DNA of 64,000 nt from Acetomicrobium flavidum (lineage in GTDB: Bacteria > Synergistota > Synergistia > Synergistales > Acetomicrobiaceae), in contig NZ_FSQZ01000001.1 of assembly GCF_900129645.1 (NCBI RefSeq), forward strand, positions 682,001 to 746,000. Direction: 5' to 3'. Shown here in pieces: positions 8,095-17,377 of this stretch. Below the pieces are notes generated by a model. That model was given only the letters and a program-made list of their open reading frames with translations, searched no databases and was not told the origin of the DNA. A program made the position numbers and the translations under genes. How positions within the stretch are numbered: the stretch's first letter is position 1; every line of letters begins with the position of its first letter.

Positions 8095-9252
8095 TTACAG
8101 ATAGCCCTCTTTTTTCAGGACTTCTATGGCTTGGGTTGAAAGGCGAGAGGGAACTTTAATAACAGGACCCGTACAACCCATGGCGGATTCGGCATAGATG
8201 CCGTGAGCCCAAAGCAGCTTGACGGCATCCTCTATGGTCAAAACATCGATGCCGTGGATTTCCTCGTCCGTAGGTTCCGGCTTTGGCTGTTCAACTGGCG
8301 ATCGCTTTTCTTCCTGCCTGTCGTGCAACTCACCCAATACCCCTTCGAGGCCGGCCATTTTTGCCATATTCAATTCCCTTTTTACAAGGGAGGGCAAGCC
8401 CGCAGTGACGACCTCAGCCGTAAAACGAATCGCATTTGCAATGACGCAAGCTCCAGAGGCACGAGATATTATGGAGATGACGTAAGGCCAGTCCTCGCCC
8501 ACGGAAGGCCCGTACCCCCAACCAAGGGACTCGTAATTTCCGCCCGTATTGTAGGCGCCAAAGACCTTGACCAGGACGTTGCCGGTCAGGGTATCCGTAA
8601 CGCACACGTCGACGGCACCATAGATCAGGTCGTTTCCTCTAAGTATGGGACCGCCGTCCTGCCTGACGCTGCTTCCAAAGGTGATGCCATAACCCTGCTC
8701 GGCAAGTTTTTTAAGAGACCTGTAAACGAGCTGTGCGCCGTCGACGTTTAAGATGCCGACTGTGGGATCTTTTATACCCTTAGCCTTGGCAACGGCTATG
8801 CCGTAAATGGCGTTTAATATCATGGCTTCAACCCTGTTTGTCGACGACGTACCGGTGGAGGTCGAAATTATGAGGGGTTTACCCTTGGCCGGCGTGTGTA
8901 TCATGCCGACCGTTGCCACCCCCAGGGGGAATGGATAATGAAGGGCGACGGCACCCTTTATTCGACCACTTTTCAAGGCATCTTCCATGGCCTTCTGTAT
9001 GTCAGCTTCGCAATCATCGGTCTCTATCCATTCCAGGTCGTCAAATCCTTTGACGCGGGGTCCTATCATCACGACCTTGATGAAACGATATTCATCCTGC
9101 GCAAGTTTTCCAGCCAATGCAAGCTCCTCAGGCCCCAGCTCGCTTCCGCTGCTCATTAGGCCAATGGGCACAAGTTCGCCCCTTCCTCTTGCGGACATGA
9201 CTATCTCATCCAGTGCTTCACCGATTAATCTTTTCATCGCCATTTTATCCAC
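8095..9252 (-). CDS. grdD: Glycine reductase complex protein C, alpha subunit (GrdD)
   Basis: A 385-residue PlsX-like protein, partner of GrdC in the acetyl-transfer component of glycine reductase, which releases acetyl phosphate from the carboxymethyl-selenoether on GrdA. Family features seen are HYPFPLGVATVGMIHTP near residue 105, the GILNVDGAQ segment, and a C-terminal AMGCTGPVIKVP in which C360 corresponds to the cysteine described for Eubacterium acidaminophilum GrdD. Gap to grdC is 19 bp. It is the last gene of the operon and is followed by a strong terminator. Unlike FabH-type partners alone, GrdD is diagnostic for the reductase complex. Confidence 0.95.
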   Translation of the reverse strand: MDKMAMKRLIGEALDEIVMSARGRGELVPIGLMSSGSELGPEELALAGKLAQDEYRFIKVVMIGPRVKGFDDLEWIETDDCEADIQKAMEDALKSGRIKGAVALHYPFPLGVATVGMIHTPAKGKPLIISTSTGTSSTNRVEAMILNAIYGIAVAKAKGIKDPTVGILNVDGAQLVYRSLKKLAEQGYGITFGSSVRQDGGPILRGNDLIYGAVDVCVTDTLTGNVLVKVFGAYNTGGNYESLGWGYGPSVGEDWPYVISIISRASGACVIANAIRFTAEVVTAGLPSLVKRELNMAKMAGLEGVLGELHDRQEEKRSPVEQPKPEPTDEEIHGIDVLTIEDAVKLLWAHGIYAESAMGCTGPVIKVPSRLSTQAIEVLKKEGYL

Positions 9253-9271: not shown

Positions 9272-10822
9272 TCACTTTGCGCCAGCGCCCTTTAGGGTAT
9301 CGGCAAGATCGGCTAGCACCTCCAAAATGGTATCCCTTATCTCGTCCTTGCTGATTAGCCCTTCCTCTTTTTGGGCCACGGACGAGGGGAATTCAATGAT
9401 GAAAGAAGCTCCATCGGACAAATTGGTCAGGCGAGCCAAAAAGAGGCTTCCCTTTCCTATGATCATTGCCCGCTTCATCTTGCCTTCCTTTATATCCTCA
9501 CATGCATGTCCAATAAAGGGCACTCCCGAAGGGATATGTCCTTGAGTAGGGGCAAATCCGGGCATTCCACGCTGCCTTATAAAATCGTTCATGCCTGTCT
9601 TGTCAAGCTCTTTTTTCATGACGGCCAAGGCCGCTATCATCTTAAAATTAGCCTCAGGCACATTTCCTGCACCGGCAGGCAATGTAATTTCGGGATTTTG
9701 GAGCTCTGCAGCATATTTGTCTATGTCAAGAAAATTTAGCCCCACTCTTTTCAAGGGCTCGTAGACCAAGGCCTCGGTTATGGCCTGCGGAGACGCTCCG
9801 GCTCCTACGGAGTGCTTGCCTATGGCATCCAATCTCATGACAGGGGAGACGCCGTCTTCCGGCGCAAGAAGTATCGCGAAATTGCCCAATGTATCTTCAA
9901 GGGCAGGCATGCCCTTTTTTACATGGTCCCTTGAATTCATGTAAAGCTTTGGCACTGCGCCGCCGGCCAACACGACGACGTTTTTCCTTATGCCGGAAGC
10001 CACTTGTGCAGCGGCATTTATCAAGGCGTATACGGGGCCTGCACAGAAACCCCTTACGTCGCATCCGCTGGCATTGACGCAACCTACTATCTCGCCAATT
10101 GATTTCGCGAAATTGCCTCCTCCCCGCTGGTTCATATCTCCTGCCGCTTCCTCGGAACATTCGATGATGAAATCGACCTCTTCGGGCTTCATCTTTGCGT
10201 TGTTCAGCAAATGCAGCAAGGCCAAAACACCGCCTGCCTTGCAGGCGATATTTTCAAGCAATACGTATGAGGACAAACATTCATCGAACTCGTGCGCCTT
10301 CCTGCAACAACCTATAATGCGACCATCAAAGTAGATGGGCAAAGCGCTTCCATCTTTTATTTCCTGCTCGATTTCATCCGCGGTATGTCCTTTTTCAAGT
10401 CTCTGCAAGATATTTTGGTTCATCAAGGGATGAGCTTGAAGTTTTTCTCGAGCCCTACCGGAAAAAGAACTTTCAAGCCAAATGATGTCAAAGACGTCAC
10501 ATATGTCCATGAGGCCCAAAAATTCGTCTTCAGGCATTATCTCCCCAAACCTACCGAAACGCGAAGCCTCTTTTAAGGGCTTTTCGTACCATGGAGTTTC
10601 ATGAGCCTCCAGATCCTTTAAAGAAATACCTCCAATGAAGGCCTGGTTTGGAGCATAACGTATTGCGTCATCGTAGGTGCGCATGAACTTCGACAAAGAG
10701 GAGAGATACTCGGACTCTCCTTTGTTGTTTCTTTCCCAGAAAGGTGTATTACCATAGTAATAGGACAACTCAGGTACGTGATTCAGGCAATAAGCATACT
10801 GTCTTATAGCAACCTTTTGCAT
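9272..10822 (-). CDS. grdC: Glycine reductase complex protein C, beta subunit (GrdC)
   Basis: A 516-residue beta-ketoacyl-synthase-III-like protein forming protein C with GrdD; it accepts the acetyl group as a thioester. The probable active cysteine is in VRGFCAGPVYALINAA, and a NASGCDV segment lies just before. I moved the start from 10918 to the ATG at 10822. From there the N terminus aligns with known GrdC proteins (ESEYLSSLSKFMRTY, RYAPNQAFIGG), and the longer version would translate through an apparent terminator hairpin at 10869-10900. GAGGAG lies 13 nt upstream, slightly far. The gap to grdB is 100 bp, the largest in the operon. Confidence 0.93.
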   Translation of the reverse strand: MQKVAIRQYAYCLNHVPELSYYYGNTPFWERNNKGESEYLSSLSKFMRTYDDAIRYAPNQAFIGGISLKDLEAHETPWYEKPLKEASRFGRFGEIMPEDEFLGLMDICDVFDIIWLESSFSGRAREKLQAHPLMNQNILQRLEKGHTADEIEQEIKDGSALPIYFDGRIIGCCRKAHEFDECLSSYVLLENIACKAGGVLALLHLLNNAKMKPEEVDFIIECSEEAAGDMNQRGGGNFAKSIGEIVGCVNASGCDVRGFCAGPVYALINAAAQVASGIRKNVVVLAGGAVPKLYMNSRDHVKKGMPALEDTLGNFAILLAPEDGVSPVMRLDAIGKHSVGAGASPQAITEALVYEPLKRVGLNFLDIDKYAAELQNPEITLPAGAGNVPEANFKMIAALAVMKKELDKTGMNDFIRQRGMPGFAPTQGHIPSGVPFIGHACEDIKEGKMKRAMIIGKGSLFLARLTNLSDGASFIIEFPSSVAQKEEGLISKDEIRDTILEVLADLADTLKGAGAK

Positions 10823-10868
10823 GTTATCATGCACGCTCCTCATCAGGAAATAACGTTCTAAGTCAAAT

Positions 10869-10900
10869 AAAGGGCCAAAGGATAGACTCTTTGGCCCTTT
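10869..10900 (-). terminator. Intra-operon hairpin between grdB and grdC
   Basis: A 12-bp perfect stem (AAAGGGCCAAAG with its complement) with an 8-nt loop, followed on the minus strand by ATTTGAC. It resembles a weak intrinsic terminator or a 3'-end stabiliser. It would let the selenoprotein genes grdE-A-B be expressed more than grdC-D. Confidence 0.6.
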
Positions 10901-10922
10901 TGTTACTGCAACGTCCAACCCA

Positions 10923-12230
10923 TCAATCGGTAAAGACCGTCTGCTCGCTTATGTCAGTCTGCAAGGCAGACAAAGCCTTCATGAGCAAACGACGCCTTAT
11001 CGCCCTTTCCTCTTCCAGGGATTTCGTTGGATCTCCCAGGGGGTGAGGTATGGCAATAGCGGGAACTATCCTATTTGCTCCGACGGTCTGCGATATGGGA
11101 ACTATTGTGCACACATGAACGGTGGGCAGGCCTGCCCTTTCCAGCTCTTTTACGATCGTTGCACCGCAACGAGTACAGGTTCCTCAGGTGGAGGTGAGTA
11201 TCACTCCATCGACGTTGGCCGCCTTCAATCTCTTGGCGATCTCCTCGCCAAACTTCTTGGCGTATGCCACAGGAGTGCCATTGCCAACCGTTGCGTAGTA
11301 TTTATCGTGCAAAGATCCAAAGGCACCTTCGCGCTCAAGCTGCCTGGCGACATCAAGGGGCAATACCCTGTCGGGGTCCTCATTTGCGTAGGTCGGATCA
11401 TAACCGCCGTGGGCCGTCTCGTGCGTCTGAGGAGTGAGATCATCCAGCCCCTCTAGGCTGTACTCTCCAAACTTAGTAGCGCTCGAAGCCTCTATCCTGT
11501 CGGGGTTACCCTTGGGTACTATTCCGCCAGAGGTGACCAAAGCGATCTTAGCCTTCTTCATGTCCTTTATGGCCGGAGCCGGCGGAACGCGGTCAAAGGA
11601 CGGCATGGGATACTCGGTGACGAATTCCTCACCTTTAAGCTTTTTCACTAGCATGTCGACAGCTCTTTCTGCCCCAAGCTTATCGCGGAAGATGTTGAAA
11701 CGGATGCCCCGTTCGATATAGCCATCTTCCTTGGGTCGGCCTATGGGCTCACCCTTCAATTGCTTGAGAAGCAACTTTGCCATCCTGGGTATGGCATCGC
11801 GCATGCCTCTCGCGCTATCGGCCGTCTCGACTATATATAAGCCCTTCCTGTAGATTTCGACTGCCGGATTTTCCGGGTACATGGCAGTGACGACAGGAAT
11901 GTTCAACCTCTTGCTCACCGCATCGCATATGGCACCGCATGCCATACCGTAACGACCAGCGTTGAAAGCGGGTCCGGCAACAAAGGCATCGGGCCGATAT
12001 CCCTTTATGAAATCTATAATTTTTTCTATGGCTTCATCCATATGCTCGGCGAAATAGCCGTCCCCACAAATTACCGTAGCGACGATGGTGGCCTCTCCGC
12101 CCAAGGCAGCCTGCAGGGCCTGACCGGGCCCCACAATCCCTTCGCGAACCTCCGGGGGATAGTCTGCCCTTTCCTCGCCGCCTATGCCGGCAAAAAATTG
12201 GTTTATGTAATGAACTACCTTGTACGCCAT
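10923..12230 (-). CDS. grdB: Glycine reductase complex protein B gamma subunit (GrdB), selenoprotein
   Basis: A 435-residue selenoprotein with UGA at 11184-11186 (codon 349) read as selenocysteine. The protein starts MAYKVVHYINQFFAG. Around the UGA it reads VILTST-U-GTCTRCGATIVK, the Sec-GTC-TRCG active site of GrdB. It then continues as PISQTVGANRIVPAIAIPHPLG to the true stop at 10923. Read without recoding it splits into 348- and 63-residue pieces. GrdB is the substrate-activating selenol of protein B, acting with the pyruvoyl GrdE. A compact hairpin (11157-11171) starts 12 nt after the UGA and is a good bacterial SECIS candidate. Betaine or sarcosine homologues (GrdH/GrdF) are alternatives, but the adjacent grdE is of the glycine type. 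Confidence 0.95.
11157..11171 (-). promoter_or_regulatory. Candidate bacterial SECIS of grdB
   Basis: On the minus strand, CGTTGC-GGT-GCAACG forms a 6-bp stem with a GGU loop. It starts 12 nt after the in-frame UGA, within the distance used by SelB-dependent bacterial SECIS elements. It overlaps the codons for the TRCGATI segment. Confidence 0.6.
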
Positions 12231-12258: not shown

Positions 12259-12741
12259 TTAGAGCGAATATTTGCTGTATTGCTCGCGCATCTTCGCAAC
12301 CGCTTGAGACAGGGCTTCCGGATCCAAGACCATCTCCATCATTCCCATCTGTTCTTCCCAAACAGCAGGATCTACTTCTTCTCGTATATCAGGCTCAAAA
12401 ACGTGGTAAACTGCGAGTCCCAACGGGACTCCTGCCAAAGGACCTGCATAAGTCGGATCGCCGTTAGTTACCGTCTCTGCATAAATTTCTGCACCCTCAG
12501 GGTCAGAGCTACCGAGTATCACTACTACGTTCTCTGCTCCATACTTATCAACGGCGTCCTTGATGCGCTGCTGGTTCTGCAGGTCCATGGCTCCTGCGGC
12601 CGTTCAGACGAAACATTCGGTCACGGAAAATACGATTTCAGCGCCGCTATCCTTCAAACAGGCCTCCATGACGGGACCAGGAATACCATCCCGCTCGCCA
12701 AGGAGAATCAGCTTTTTACCTGCCAGCTTTCCCTTTGCCAT
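12259..12741 (-). CDS. grdA: Glycine reductase complex selenoprotein A (GrdA)
   Basis: A 160-residue selenoprotein carrying the carboxymethyl-selenoether intermediate between proteins B and C, and re-reduced by thioredoxin. I extended the gene upstream through UGA at 12604-12606 (codon 46). The result is the canonical pattern [14 protein letters not shown] after [22 protein letters not shown] lies 9 nt before the ATG at 12741. E. acidaminophilum GrdA is 158 residues with Sec44, so length and position agree. The downstream part alone (109 codons from 12588) lacks the redox site and is not a real gene. A GCAGG/CCUGC hairpin after the UGA is a SECIS candidate. It lies 25 bp after grdE. Confidence 0.96.
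12579..12597 (-). promoter_or_regulatory. Candidate bacterial SECIS of grdA
   Basis: Minus-strand GCAGG-AGCCATGGA-CCTGC forms a 5-bp GC-rich stem with a 9-nt loop. It starts 6 nt after the in-frame UGA at 12604-12606. The stem is short and the call rests on position. Confidence 0.45.
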
Positions 12742-12766: not shown

Positions 12767-14056
12767 TTACCTGGTTTCTGCCGATAGACAGGTGAAACCT
12801 AGCTCGCTGGTAGCTCCGGTTATGGCTTGTAATTCCACTTCAATGGAGCCATCCTGTTTTAATGCACCAGAAAATCCTCCGGCTATGACGTCAACAAATT
12901 CGCTAAAACCTATGACCTTTTCCATGGGCGGTAGCTTGACGGTGGGGTTGGCATTGCCCACGCTTACGACGGCATCGGCTTCGGGGGCTGCATCGGCAAG
13001 CGACTGGCTTGCTCCGTCTCGGCCTGCATACTCGTCCGTTATGAGCACCGTCTTTATGCCGGCGCGCTCGGCCTTTCTACAGTTCATTATCAAGTCGGTA
13101 TCGGGATTTCCAAAGCCTTCTTCCGTTATGATTACTCCCTCGACGCCAAGCATCTTGGCCAATTTTACGGCATAGGAGGAGCTTCGTTTCTTATCCTGAA
13201 GGGTGACGTTTTCATTAGTTATGATGCAGCCGATGAAGTTTATGTCCTTGCCGTGACGCTTGTACAATGCCTCTATGACAGGGTTGTTTTGGTGAGCGTA
13301 GGTGCTGTTTTTATCGCATGCAGACACGCAGTTTCCGGAAACTATGGCCCCATCGAAGACTTCATTAGGATGAATTAGAGTAGGCAGAATCTTTTTCGCA
13401 TCGACTCCGTAAACATAAGTATCGTGAAGCAACCCTTGAGATTGGAGCATGTAGATGTAGGCAACCCTTGGAAGCTTGTTTAAGTGGTCTGGCCTTTTCG
13501 TAATTTCCTCAAGTTCGTAAGTTTGCACCTCGTCAGGATGTGCCCCCTTAGCCTTTACTGCCAGGAAGTGCGCAACCTTTAGCCCCGCGACGCGGCAGGC
13601 AGCTTCGTAATCATGCCTCTCAATGCCGGCCTTAGGCGTAAAGACCAAGACCACGTTGTTCGTCTTCGAGAAGGGGGTATACTCTGCCCCAGGCCCCGAC
13701 ATATCTATTATGCCCTCTTGAAAGCCGACTATCTTTCCGCAAGTCACAACGGCAGCCCCTGCTAATGCCAGGGTCTTTCCTTGCCCCACTGCGCCCTCGA
13801 CGTCACCTATAAAACCGGGAAAGACATCGCCTTCGCCCTCTATCTTGCATCTCGGTTCAATGACATCCTTGACGGGAACGATGCGCACCCTCTCGCCTGG
13901 ACGGGCCAAATCCACCTCGACGGATTCCAAACGATCGTCCGATGAGAGCAAGTCGATTATCTCCTCGCGATTGACATAGAGGATGCCATCTTCGACCTTC
14001 GTAGCATCTCCCCATTTAACGTCTTTTACCTTGATCTTATGCAATTCAAGCCTCAC
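12767..14056 (-). CDS. grdE: Glycine reductase complex protein B alpha/beta proprotein (GrdE)
   Basis: A 429-residue precursor of the substrate-binding subunits of protein B. The internal VSGNCVSACDKNSTYAHQ contains the Asn-Cys site where GrdE-type proteins are cleaved to leave an N-terminal pyruvoyl group that forms a Schiff base with glycine. Later GRDGASQSLADAAPEADAVV and GNANPTVKLPPM are also typical of the glycine-specific form. I chose the GTG at 14056, 8 nt after AGGAGG, so the protein begins (V/M)RLELHKIKVKDV like known GrdE. A GTG at 14065 overlaps the ribosome-binding site and is less likely. Assigning glycine rather than sarcosine or betaine is by overall resemblance and the riboswitch upstream. 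Confidence 0.94.
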   Translation of the reverse strand: MRLELHKIKVKDVKWGDATKVEDGILYVNREEIIDLLSSDDRLESVEVDLARPGERVRIVPVKDVIEPRCKIEGEGDVFPGFIGDVEGAVGQGKTLALAGAAVVTCGKIVGFQEGIIDMSGPGAEYTPFSKTNNVVLVFTPKAGIERHDYEAACRVAGLKVAHFLAVKAKGAHPDEVQTYELEEITKRPDHLNKLPRVAYIYMLQSQGLLHDTYVYGVDAKKILPTLIHPNEVFDGAIVSGNCVSACDKNSTYAHQNNPVIEALYKRHGKDINFIGCIITNENVTLQDKKRSSSYAVKLAKMLGVEGVIITEEGFGNPDTDLIMNCRKAERAGIKTVLITDEYAGRDGASQSLADAAPEADAVVSVGNANPTVKLPPMEKVIGFSEFVDVIAGGFSGALKQDGSIEVELQAITGATSELGFTCLSAETR

Positions 14057-14072
14057 TGCATACACCTCCTTT

Positions 14073-14396
14073 TTAGGACTGCAGTAACTTTTCGACCCTT
14101 TCTCTTATAGCATCAATAGTGACCTCGCTGCCCGTTATCCTGTCCTTTAACTCTCCTCCTTTGTAGAACAAGAATGTAGGAACTCCCATCACCTTCAAGC
14201 TGATGACCAGGCGGCGGTTCTCAGCCACGTTAAGCTTACAGAATTTGACCTTGCCTTCGTACTTCGAGGCAAGTTCTTCCACTTGGGGCATCAATGCAAG
14301 GCATGGACCACACTTTGGTCCCCACATGTCTACCACTACAGGTAAGTCGCTTTGTAGAACTTCCGCCTCAAAGTTGTCCTTATTGACTTCGATCAA
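14073..14396 (-). CDS. trxA: Thioredoxin (GrdA-reducing)
   Basis: A 107-residue thioredoxin fold. The redox site is MWGPKCGPCLALMP with C29 and C32, and a later VMGVPTFLFYKGG holds the cis-proline. The CGPC core is standard, but the residue before it is lysine where most thioredoxins have tryptophan (WCGPC). Its place between grdX and grdE is the usual one for the thioredoxin that reduces oxidised GrdA. No thioredoxin reductase gene is in this operon, so the reductant comes from elsewhere. Start at 14396, 1 bp after the grdX stop. Confidence 0.95.
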   Translation of the reverse strand: MIEVNKDNFEAEVLQSDLPVVVDMWGPKCGPCLALMPQVEELASKYEGKVKFCKLNVAENRRLVISLKVMGVPTFLFYKGGELKDRITGSEVTIDAIRERVEKLLQS

Positions 14397-14397
14397 T

Positions 14398-14802
14398 TCA
14401 ATGCACCCCCTCTTGTGATGTTATCCCGCATTGACGAAGCACGGGCATTATCAGCTCTTCATCGAGATATTGCATATCCTCCATTGCCTTTGTACTTTGC
14501 AGTGGAAAGGAAGGCTTGCTGTTTCTATAGATATCTAAAGCACTTTCTACTAATTTGATGGAATCGAGATCGACAAAATGATCTTCCTGCTGGAGGGAAG
14601 GCTTAAAAACCACAACGGACAAAAAAAGCCGTCTCGATGCAGGTAAATTTCCTGTTAAAGGATGAGATAAAATCCTATATCCCCGGTGCACCTTATCGCG
14701 TAGAGCTATTAGGACATCCAAAACCGGCCCCTCTATATAGGTGCAATTTGAAAAGCTCTTAATGCGTGGGTTATTTGATATGATCTCATAAAAAAAGGAC
14801 AT
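14398..14802 (-). CDS. grdX: GrdX family protein
   Basis: A 134-residue protein of unknown biochemical function, found at the head of glycine/betaine reductase operons. It matches GrdX by size, position and the segment GYRILSHPLTGNLPASRRLFLSVVVF. No signal peptide, membrane segment or metal motif is seen, so it is probably cytoplasmic. Its start codon and ribosome-binding site (AAAAGGGGGG) lie inside a hairpin at the 3' end of the tandem glycine riboswitch, so translation of this first gene is the most direct output of glycine sensing. Confidence 0.8.
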   Translation of the reverse strand: MSFFYEIISNNPRIKSFSNCTYIEGPVLDVLIALRDKVHRGYRILSHPLTGNLPASRRLFLSVVVFKPSLQQEDHFVDLDSIKLVESALDIYRNSKPSFPLQSTKAMEDMQYLDEELIMPVLRQCGITSQEGVH

Positions 14803-14804
14803 CA

Positions 14805-15010
14805 GCCAAACCCCCCTTTTGGTTCATTTGGCCCCTGTCCTCTTTACCCGCAGGGATTCGCCGTTTTCGGCTTGCCCTTTTGGTAGATCCAAATTTTGGA
14901 CCTTTTCCAGGGCTTCGTCACGTCGCAATCCTTTTGCCTGAGAGATTGGGGCCACTGCCCTTGCACCTTCGGCTTCTCACGCTTTGCATGAGATATCTCT
15001 TGCGGCGCTC
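14805..15010 (-). ncRNA. Tandem glycine riboswitch in the grd operon leader
   Basis: Two glycine aptamers are visible on the minus strand. Aptamer 1 (about 15004 to 14924) has P1 CGCAA/TTGCG, then AGCCGAAGGTGCAAGG and ATCTCTCAGGCAAAAGGAT, the hallmark conserved core. Aptamer 2 (about 14913 to 14831) has P1 GCCCTG/CAGGGGC, GCCGAAAACGGCGAAT and GGGTAAAGAGGACAGG, a more divergent copy. A short linker joins them. The 3' strand of the second P1 overlaps GCCAAA, which can otherwise pair with TTTGGC just before the grdX start and trap the AAAAGGGGGG ribosome-binding site. This suggests glycine turns translation on. The mechanism is inference; the aptamer identity is well supported. Confidence 0.85.
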
Positions 15011-15016
15011 ATCCGA

Positions 15017-15022
15017 ATTATA
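15017..15022 (-). promoter_or_regulatory. -10 element of the grd operon promoter
   Basis: A perfect TATAAT on the minus strand lies about 7 nt before the riboswitch aptamer. The -35 is poor (ATAAAA about 17 bp upstream), so the exact promoter is uncertain. Placement right before the aptamer supports it. Confidence 0.5.
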
Positions 15023-15097
15023 AACATTTTCACATAATATTTTATACTAACTATTTTAAAGGTCAAGGACGACCGGATAAAAAGTATACTTCTTATC

Positions 15098-16075
15098 CTA
15101 ACATATCCTCGGAACCATTTCCCCGGCCAACATATCCACCACCCTAATGCCGCCTATCTCCGTCTTAAGGCCAACGATGCCCGGATGGTCTTCCGTGACC
15201 TTGCCTATAGCTGTACAATTGGGAGCCAAAACTCTCAAAGAAGAAAGGACATATTCTGCACAGTCCGGTGCCACGGCGATAACGGCCGTGCCCTCGCAGG
15301 CTAAATGCAGCACGTCGAAACCAAGCACATCGGCAACTGATGCCACTTCCGGATCTAAGGGTATCAGATCTTCTTCGATCTCTATCCCAATGCCAGCTCC
15401 TTCAGCCCATTCGCATAGGACCGTCCCCAATCCGCCTCGCGTGCAATCCCTGGCACATTTAACCCCCGCTACTTCAGTAAGGGGTTGCATCAAGGGCCAT
15501 AGAGGAGCACAATCGCTTGCCAATTGGTCTACGTCTAATCCGTAATGAAGCGCCGATATCAAGGCGCCATGCTTGCCTATGGGGCCGGTTATTACCAAGA
15601 TGTCACCCGAGGACAAATTATTTATCCCCCAAGGCCTCCCTGTCACGGCCTTTCCCAAGGCACAGCAGGTTATATACATGCCATCTGCCTGTCCCCTCGG
15701 CAAAACTTTAGTGTCACCGGCAACGAGCTTAACATCAAGCTCTTTGCTGACCCCATAAGCGCTTTTTACGACCTTAATCAACTCCTCCTTGGGCAAACCC
15801 TCCTCTATCAGAATGCTCATGGCCAAATACATGGGCTTGACACCTCTCACTGCCAGGTCATTGGTGCTGCCGCACACGGCCAGCTTGCCTATATCACCTC
15901 CGGGGAAAAACCTGGGGCTCACGGTAAAACCGTCGATGGTCACTCCAAGGCCGCCTTCAATCAATGCGCAATCCTCTAAATCCTTTATACTGTTATCTCC
16001 ATATATGCTCAATATTTCGCCGATAAGTTGCTGGGTCGGCCTACCGCCACTGCCGTGTTTAAGCTCCACGAACAT
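15098..16075 (-). CDS. hypE: Hydrogenase maturation protein HypE
   Basis: A 325-residue AIR-synthase/PurM-like ATPase that dehydrates the thiocarbamate on its own C-terminal cysteine to the cyanide ligand of the NiFe centre. HGSGGRPTQQLI at the N terminus and the terminal VPRIC, with the catalytic cysteine as last residue, are diagnostic. They separate it from the related SelD and ThiL. I prefer the ATG at 16075, placed after AGGTGATG; a GTG at 16081 is possible. It follows hypD by 2 bp. The structural hydrogenase genes and hypA, B, F are not in the window. Confidence 0.93.
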   Translation of the reverse strand: MFVELKHGSGGRPTQQLIGEILSIYGDNSIKDLEDCALIEGGLGVTIDGFTVSPRFFPGGDIGKLAVCGSTNDLAVRGVKPMYLAMSILIEEGLPKEELIKVVKSAYGVSKELDVKLVAGDTKVLPRGQADGMYITCCALGKAVTGRPWGINNLSSGDILVITGPIGKHGALISALHYGLDVDQLASDCAPLWPLMQPLTEVAGVKCARDCTRGGLGTVLCEWAEGAGIGIEIEEDLIPLDPEVASVADVLGFDVLHLACEGTAVIAVAPDCAEYVLSSLRVLAPNCTAIGKVTEDHPGIVGLKTEIGGIRVVDMLAGEMVPRIC

Positions 16076-16077
16076 GA

Positions 16078-17148
16078 TCACATCACCTTATGGGAATATT
16101 TATAACAGGCAGCACAGCTGCCTTCGCTCGATACCATACAGGGACCAACCGGATCATCGGGGTTGCAACGCTTGGCAAAGAGGGGGCACTGCTGGGGTGT
16201 TATCTTTCCCATCAACACATCACCACATTTGCATCCTGAAGGCAAAGGAACTTCCTCGATCCTGAGATCAAACTTAGCAGCTGCATCGAACCGAGAAAAT
16301 TCCGCTTTCAAGCGCAGCCCGGATTTTTTTATCTCGCCCAGCCCTCTCCATCTTGCATCGGCCTCATCAAAGACTCGTCTTACGAGCTTTTGGGCCAAAG
16401 GATTTCCTTCAGGCTTGACCGCCCTGGCATAAAGCAGGCTGACCTTAAAATCCTTGTAGCGGACCTGTCTTGCCAGCTCTACTATCCCTTCCATTATGTC
16501 AAGGGCTTCAAAGCCGGCAATGGCACAGGCGACCTTGAAATCCCTCGGTAAAAACATGTAGGGAGCTACCCCCAATACCACGCTGACGTGCCCTGGAAGG
16601 ATAAAACCGTCGACCTTGAGCTCCTTTGAACCCGCAAGAAGCCGCAGCGCCGGCGGAACCAATTTATGGAAACAAAGGACTGAAAAATTTTCAATCTCCC
16701 TTTCTGCCGCCTCCAAGATGACGGCTGCCGTTGAAGGAGCAGTAGTCTCAAACCCAACCCCTAGGAAGGCCACTTCTTTGGTCGGGTTTTTTAAGGCCAA
16801 ATTTAAGGCCTCGTCACAGGACTTAACAACCCTAACGTCAGCACCACGAGCCCTCAAATCCTGCAAAGATCCCTTTGTCCCGGGCACACGCAGCATATCG
16901 CCGTACGTAGCAAAGATCAAATCCCCTTTATTGGCTAACTGTATGGCTGCATCCACTTCGCCCTGATCCGTAACGCATACGGGACAGCCTGGTCCCGACA
17001 CGAGCGACACGTTCTTTGGAAGCAGGGATCTCAATCCGCTCCTGTAGATCGCGACAGTATGAGTGCCGCAAACCTCCATGAACGTCAAGGGCTCGTCGGC
17101 AAGGTTATTTAAAGCATCGCAAAGTAGTTTTATCTTATCTTTAAGCAT
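16078..17148 (-). CDS. hypD: Hydrogenase maturation protein HypD
   Basis: A 356-residue 4Fe-4S scaffold protein for Fe(CN)2CO assembly, working with HypC. Cysteine motifs typical of HypD are all present: VCGTHT near the N terminus, GPGCPVCV in the middle, GVGFETTAP, and the C-terminal cluster site CKCGDVL...QCPLF...C...C. I chose the ATG at 17148, overlapping the hypC stop by 8 bp; a TTG at 17163 is an upstream alternative. It forms a compact hypCDE operon. Confidence 0.95.
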   Translation of the reverse strand: MLKDKIKLLCDALNNLADEPLTFMEVCGTHTVAIYRSGLRSLLPKNVSLVSGPGCPVCVTDQGEVDAAIQLANKGDLIFATYGDMLRVPGTKGSLQDLRARGADVRVVKSCDEALNLALKNPTKEVAFLGVGFETTAPSTAAVILEAAEREIENFSVLCFHKLVPPALRLLAGSKELKVDGFILPGHVSVVLGVAPYMFLPRDFKVACAIAGFEALDIMEGIVELARQVRYKDFKVSLLYARAVKPEGNPLAQKLVRRVFDEADARWRGLGEIKKSGLRLKAEFSRFDAAAKFDLRIEEVPLPSGCKCGDVLMGKITPQQCPLFAKRCNPDDPVGPCMVSSEGSCAACYKYSHKVM

Positions 17149-17377
17149 CTCTCTTGCCCGCAAGTCTCAACACTTCTTCCCATAGTTCTTCTAATTCCTG
17201 CCCGTCCTCTTCCTCGCACTTTTCTATGGCGAAACCGGCATGCACTAAGACAATGTCGCCCACGTTTAAATCGTCGATCAAATCCGTTCTCACCTCTACC
17301 CTCAAAGGCCCGGCAGCAGCTATGGCCCTCTTTGAATCCAAGATTTCTTCTATCCTATGAGGAACAGCAAGACACAT
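17141..17377 (-). CDS. hypC: Hydrogenase maturation chaperone HypC
   Basis: A 78-residue small chaperone. The N-terminal MCLAVPHRIEEI holds the conserved Cys2 (after Met removal the N-terminal residue) that binds the Fe(CN)2CO moiety. GDIVLVHAGFAIEK is the typical HypC/HupF C-terminal pattern. It is first of hypCDE and overlaps hypD. A terminator just upstream separates it from ymdB. Confidence 0.95.
   Translation of the reverse strand: MCLAVPHRIEEILDSKRAIAAAGPLRVEVRTDLIDDLNVGDIVLVHAGFAIEKCEEEDGQELEELWEEVLRLAGKRDA

Follow-up and report, generated by a model that had tools for sequence, protein, structure and literature searches.

What does a glycine riboswitch with one good aptamer and one altered aptamer do in front of an operon for glycine reductase, and through which pairing could it reach the first gene? 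The question is raised by a minus-strand leader at about 15017-14833 of the window, by which we mean the whole 64,000-nucleotide stretch of Acetomicrobium flavidum DNA analysed here; grdX (14802-14398) and the grd operon lie downstream. An earlier note on this DNA had read the leader as a tandem glycine riboswitch working as a translational ON switch, in which a GCCAAA/TTTGGC hairpin traps the grdX Shine-Dalgarno, and had proposed a covariance-model search as a check.

The leader and the genes around it

The covariance-model search matched RF00504 at 15012-14916 on the minus strand with 62.8 bits (gathering score 32, E 1.2e-10), which bears out both the presence of a glycine riboswitch and the good consensus core that had been ascribed to aptamer 1. 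It is the sole glycine aptamer detected in the 2.02-Mb genome, and the riboswitch region folds far better than its dinucleotide shuffles (z -4.25, 0/200). The features at this end of the leader are as follows.

15039-15066, minus strand: promoter-like site TTGACC-16-TAAAAT, 10/12 consensus matches, between hypE and the leader
15009-15017, minus strand: kink-turn leader strand UUCG-GAU-GA, pairing with the linker strand
14914-14919, minus strand: kink-turn linker strand GA-CGAA, pairing with the leader strand
14916-15012, minus strand: glycine aptamer 1, covering 94/94 model positions of RF00504, with canonical letters at the glycine-contacting positions

Aptamer 1 carries A, G, G, A and U at the equivalents of positions 33, 35, 36, 64 and 69 of V. 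cholerae aptamer II, of which we take 33, 36 and 64 to be contacts for glycine. The same role for 35 and 69 is given in PMC12060979. Aptamer 1 is thus canonical in its letters and looks able to bind glycine. The kink-turn that joins leader and linker is conserved by covariation: a C-stem of at least three pairs is present in 93 of the 95 leaders of the order (Synergistales), and permuting the partners gives a mean of 53 and a maximum of 63.

TTGACC-16-TAAAAT may be a promoter, promoter-like sites numbering 3 in the region against 1.0 expected. A TATAAT adjoining the leader was considered as a -10 box and set aside, because the inferred start would fall within the kink-turn strand. Directly upstream on the same strand are hypE and hypD (hydrogenase maturation; 15098-17163, minus strand), and the gap of 82 bases between hypE and the leader contains the promoter-like site.

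The genes downstream of the leader form a complete glycine reductase operon, in keeping with the control of grdX and glycine reductase proposed earlier.

14398-14802, minus strand: grdX, the first gene of the operon (NF038093, 93.5 bits, cut-off 40)
14073-14396, minus strand: trxA, thioredoxin (PF00085, E 7.4e-24)
12767-14065, minus strand: grdE, component B proprotein (PF09338, 714.6 bits)
12259-12741, minus strand: grdA, with an in-frame UGA at 12606-12604, translated with UGA as Sec
10923-12230, minus strand: grdB, with an in-frame UGA at 11186-11184 and SECIS_4 at 11183-11146 (TIGR01917, 671.8 bits, cut-off 602.2)
9272-10918, minus strand: grdC, component C subunit beta (NF040746, 760.3 bits)
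8095-9252, minus strand: grdD, component C subunit alpha (NF040747, 542.9 bits)

Sarcosine reductase was rejected, since GrdB scores 696.8 with the sarcosine model, below the cut-off of 800, and passes the glycine model; by these scores glycine is the likelier substrate, in what is a close call.

We note that grdX of the window has no UGA, and that one conserved in-frame UGA was seen in the grdX genes of L036, L041, L067 and L152 (family f2), L148, L150, L096 and L237 (f10) and L070, L089 and L090 (f8, g53). It lies 4-12 residues past the TNN motif, at a site that differs among the f2, f10 and f8/g53 groups, in a frame that is otherwise open; the codon before it is in every case Leu (CUU or CUC). 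Short hairpins were seen by eye behind it, and one of these shows a compensatory change in f10; in the four loci tried, Rfam gave no SECIS match. A GrdX of this kind may possibly be a selenoprotein, or it may monitor the supply of selenocysteine as the first gene product of a selenoprotein operon. A search of open-licence titles and abstracts turned up no report of a selenoprotein GrdX.

Competing pairings at the grdX start

The elements between the linker and the first codons of grdX are the following.

14833-14912, minus strand: aptamer 2, with P1 CCCUG (14912-14908)/CAGGG (14837-14833), P2 and P3 hairpins and an altered core
14836-14845, minus strand: 5' arm of the competing helix, AAAGAGGACA, from the MFE fold, with order-wide covariation with the grdX start
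14805-14832, minus strand: upper hairpin GCCAAAU (14832-14826)/GUUUGGC (14811-14805), in both modelled states, with the Shine-Dalgarno in its loop
14811-14820, minus strand: Shine-Dalgarno AAAAGGGGGG, 8 bases ahead of the ATG
14792-14801, minus strand: 3' arm of the competing helix, UGUCCUUUUU, within the grdX start codon and codons 2-4
14790-14796, minus strand: terminator-like U7 run after the stem, within grdX codons 3-5

In the unconstrained fold, AAAGAGGACA (14845-14836) pairs with UGUCCUUUUU (14801-14792), and above this helix GGCCAAAU/GUUUGGCU closes the Shine-Dalgarno loop. The 5' arm consists of the core strand of aptamer 2 (J3/1) and the two bases with which the P1 3' strand begins. 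In the window, P1 and the competing helix thus share only two bases directly, and J3/1 supplies the rest. When aptamer-2 P1 was forced with aptamer 1 held native, the lower helix was lost, the upper hairpin persisted, and the openness of the AUG rose from 0.34 to 0.97, in a folding program that cannot model pseudoknots. Forcing P1 in the same way opened the initiation region in 30 of 31 genera.

These folds change the part that the earlier note had given to the GCCAAA/TTTGGC hairpin. The hairpin and the Shine-Dalgarno are real, but the 5' arm of the hairpin abuts the P1 3' strand rather than overlapping it, and aptamer-2 P1 and the upper hairpin can coexist. Nor do they show the Shine-Dalgarno as trapped: in either modelled state most of it sits in the apical loop (mean unpaired 0.70 and 0.69). 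Because forcing P1 removes the lower helix and leaves the upper hairpin unchanged, that hairpin is not the competing element; the real competitor is the next helix down, AAAGAGGACA/UGUCCUUUUU, which buries the start codon.

The competing pairing was then compared across 31 genera, with one leader each; a script assigned the start codons and P1 by a strict pattern, which dropped 22 of the 95 leaders, and some of the assigned starts are doubtful. The duplex energy between the P1' strand and the grdX start region was -16.1 kcal/mol with the own partner and -11.6 kcal/mol (sd 0.55) with permuted partners, and 0 of 10,000 permutations did as well. The same permutation comparison found no pairing excess for two other upstream segments and later grdX codons. 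The arms of the upper hairpin likewise co-vary. Examples of the changing pairs are GCGACAG/CUGUCGC, ACGACAG/CUGUCGU and UCGACAG/CUGUCGA in families f5, f6 and f7. The stem is slight or absent in a few genera, such as g16 and g17, and the genus of the window ranks 15th of 31 among partners. The covariation is therefore an argument about the order, and is not carried by the window alone. The two competing pairings and their covariation across the order are computed results, as are aptamer 1 and the kink-turn.

We consider it probable that aptamer 1 senses glycine, that aptamer 2, in its degraded form, provides the scaffold and the output arm, and that the leader is a glycine-ON switch acting at the grdX start. 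Without glycine, AAAGAGGACA, from the core and P1 of aptamer 2, would pair with UGUCCUUUUU and hold the start codon within a long hairpin; translation of grdX would be blocked, and possibly transcription too by way of the U7 run. With glycine, aptamer 1 would dock onto aptamer 2 and aptamer-2 P1 would close, which would open the lower helix of the hairpin and free the start codon, and the glycine reductase operon would be made. What we infer is that glycine is bound, that it turns the operon on, and that control throughout the order is exerted on translation. The direction is suggested by the gene content, the geometry (ligand stabilises P1, and P1 opens the start) and the precedent of C. difficile, in which grd transcription rises with glycine (PMC11477304). 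In the models the OFF state lies 10.7 kcal/mol below the ON state, so glycine would have to act during transcription, if these energies are right.

Of the translational ON switch proposed earlier, the direction is thus likely, but purely translational control is unproven, because a terminator-like U7 follows the hairpin. In this genus the leader might work mainly by transcription termination, the hairpin at 14845-14792 and the U7 forming an intrinsic terminator whose formation glycine prevents and whose 3' arm encodes the first grdX codons. We regard this as possible, and as the less probable account. The hairpin is strong (-26.5 kcal/mol), and a G+C-containing stem with a U run directly after it, as expected of an intrinsic terminator, is present as GGACA/UGUCC and U7. 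Stem and U run occur together in five of six leaders of the genus; at least five U in the eight bases after the stem are found in 11 of 30 genera, mainly of f8 and f1, and the mean number of T in those eight bases is 3.4 against a background of 2.2. Against this, G008 of the same genus has the stem without the U run, U-rich tails are absent from most genera of f5 and f10, and a simple terminator scan found none, with a loop limit of 8 that excludes the hairpin at 14845-14792. Since the U7 lies behind the stem, termination inside grdX is possible as well. We take burial of the start codon to be the mechanism held in common, to which termination may have been added locally.

Aptamer 2: sensor or structural arm

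RF00504 finds no match in aptamer 2 of the window, even at E<=10, in agreement with the divergence remarked on earlier. At the position of G35 it has A (14878), where the canonical core has G; U is kept at the position of U69 (14852), and J3b/3a has one additional base. The contacts were aligned by eye around the conserved GCAA and GAAUC, and single positions could shift. According to crystallography cited in PMC12060979, V. cholerae aptamer I contacts the amino group of glycine through G69 and the carboxylate through U81; by our own mapping these two bases correspond to G35 and U69 of aptamer II. In families f3 and f4 aptamer 2 has kept G35 and has C in place of U69. That the lineages differ in which contact they have lost suggests relaxed selection more than a single new specificity, and aptamer 2 of the window looks like a degraded structural arm rather than a second sensor.

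It is accordingly improbable, in our view, that the leader is a true tandem riboswitch in which both aptamers bind glycine cooperatively. Such a riboswitch has a second aptamer that matches RF00504, as do the relatives G008, G011 and G012; in G008, of the same genus, it still scores 39.9 bits, and aptamer 2 of the window does retain all three helices. The window itself has no such match, A replaces G where the amino group is reportedly contacted, and in most of the order aptamer 2 is without any pocket. The term tandem is justified to the extent that a second aptamer domain lies 3' of the first; it misleads in that this domain is altered here and a mere ghost in most relatives. We would give a slim chance to a three-helix aptamer 2 (in Acetomicrobium and a few other lineages) that still functions but recognises a different ligand; the leader would then be a two-input gate for glycine and a second metabolite.

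It is very unlikely that the leader belongs to the glycine-GGAnGA variants (RF03166), perhaps responding to a different ligand, and this reading was rejected. The segment 15016-14831 aligns end to end with this tandem model, but its 79.9 bits are under the cut-off (110). Canonical tandems of the order reach 81-87 bits with RF03166, which matches the B. subtilis control too. At the places in aptamer 1 where the consensus of RF03166 differs from the glycine core (...AAGcaG..., ...CugACaGG...), the window has the canonical letters.

Probable decay of aptamer 2 and relation to known systems

With aptamer 2 taken as an output arm, its condition can be followed through the order. A glycine aptamer was found in 118 of 183 genomes, most tandem-model matches lie directly upstream of grdX, and the same leader precedes grdX across the order (95 grdX leaders analysed). 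By a simple P3 signature, the fuller form of aptamer 2, with a P3-like domain, is present in 16 of the 95; the others have little beyond P1, that is, a ghost aptamer. GrdE replaced GrdX for the collection scan, the GrdX alignment having yielded no usable pattern. On a quick GrdE tree with weak forks, the full state needs at least four changes, a count that cannot separate gain from loss, and full forms occur in all three main clades. We infer repeated decay of aptamer 2 rather than regain.

Some related leaders were read by eye. Canonical tandems with two good aptamers precede a gcvT-like gene in L035, L037, L039, L040 and L043 (g42, g43). Similar singleton-type leaders stand before other genes in L138, L142 and L143, the frame being thioredoxin-like in G154 and G137 and resembling lipoate-protein ligase in G012. 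What follows the leader in L139 and L140 (g41) appears to be a disrupted grdX frame, which stops early and lacks the TNN motif.

Earlier work has already described glycine riboswitches in front of grd operons, ghost aptamers and the decay of tandems. The C. difficile grd riboswitch (PMC11477304) likewise has a glycine aptamer before a glycine reductase operon and is probably an ON switch; it belongs to a different phylum, and the comparison covers aptamer, operon and direction. Type-1 singletons with a 3' ghost, as surveyed in PMC6944388 and PMC9481103, share with the window a good 5' aptamer, a degraded 3' one whose P1 reaches the expression platform, and the kink-turn. In the survey, however, 93% of them regulate the glycine cleavage system, and here the target is grdX; their ghost is a P1-type stem-loop alone, as in most relatives, whereas aptamer 2 of the window keeps P1, P2 and P3. 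The B. subtilis gcvT tandem (PMC5666159), of which aptamer 1 is reported as the important glycine site, has the leader-linker kink-turn and an OFF hairpin adjoining aptamer 2, but both of its aptamers are intact and its ordinary terminator lies upstream of the gene, whereas the hairpin of the window spans the start codon. Glycine-GGAnGA has the tandem layout and kink-turn too, and differs in the score and aptamer 1 pocket letters given above. Among open-licence papers we found no description of the Synergistales grdX leader or of its output helix in coding sequence.

This helix is a plain example of an output pairing that covariation shows to be conserved, even though one of its arms encodes protein. 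The second aptamers before this one gene form a graded series, from those that still score (G008, G011, G012), through the folded but altered one of the window, to the bare ghost. The series is relevant to the idea, put forward in PMC6944388, that singletons among glycine riboswitches descend from decayed tandems.
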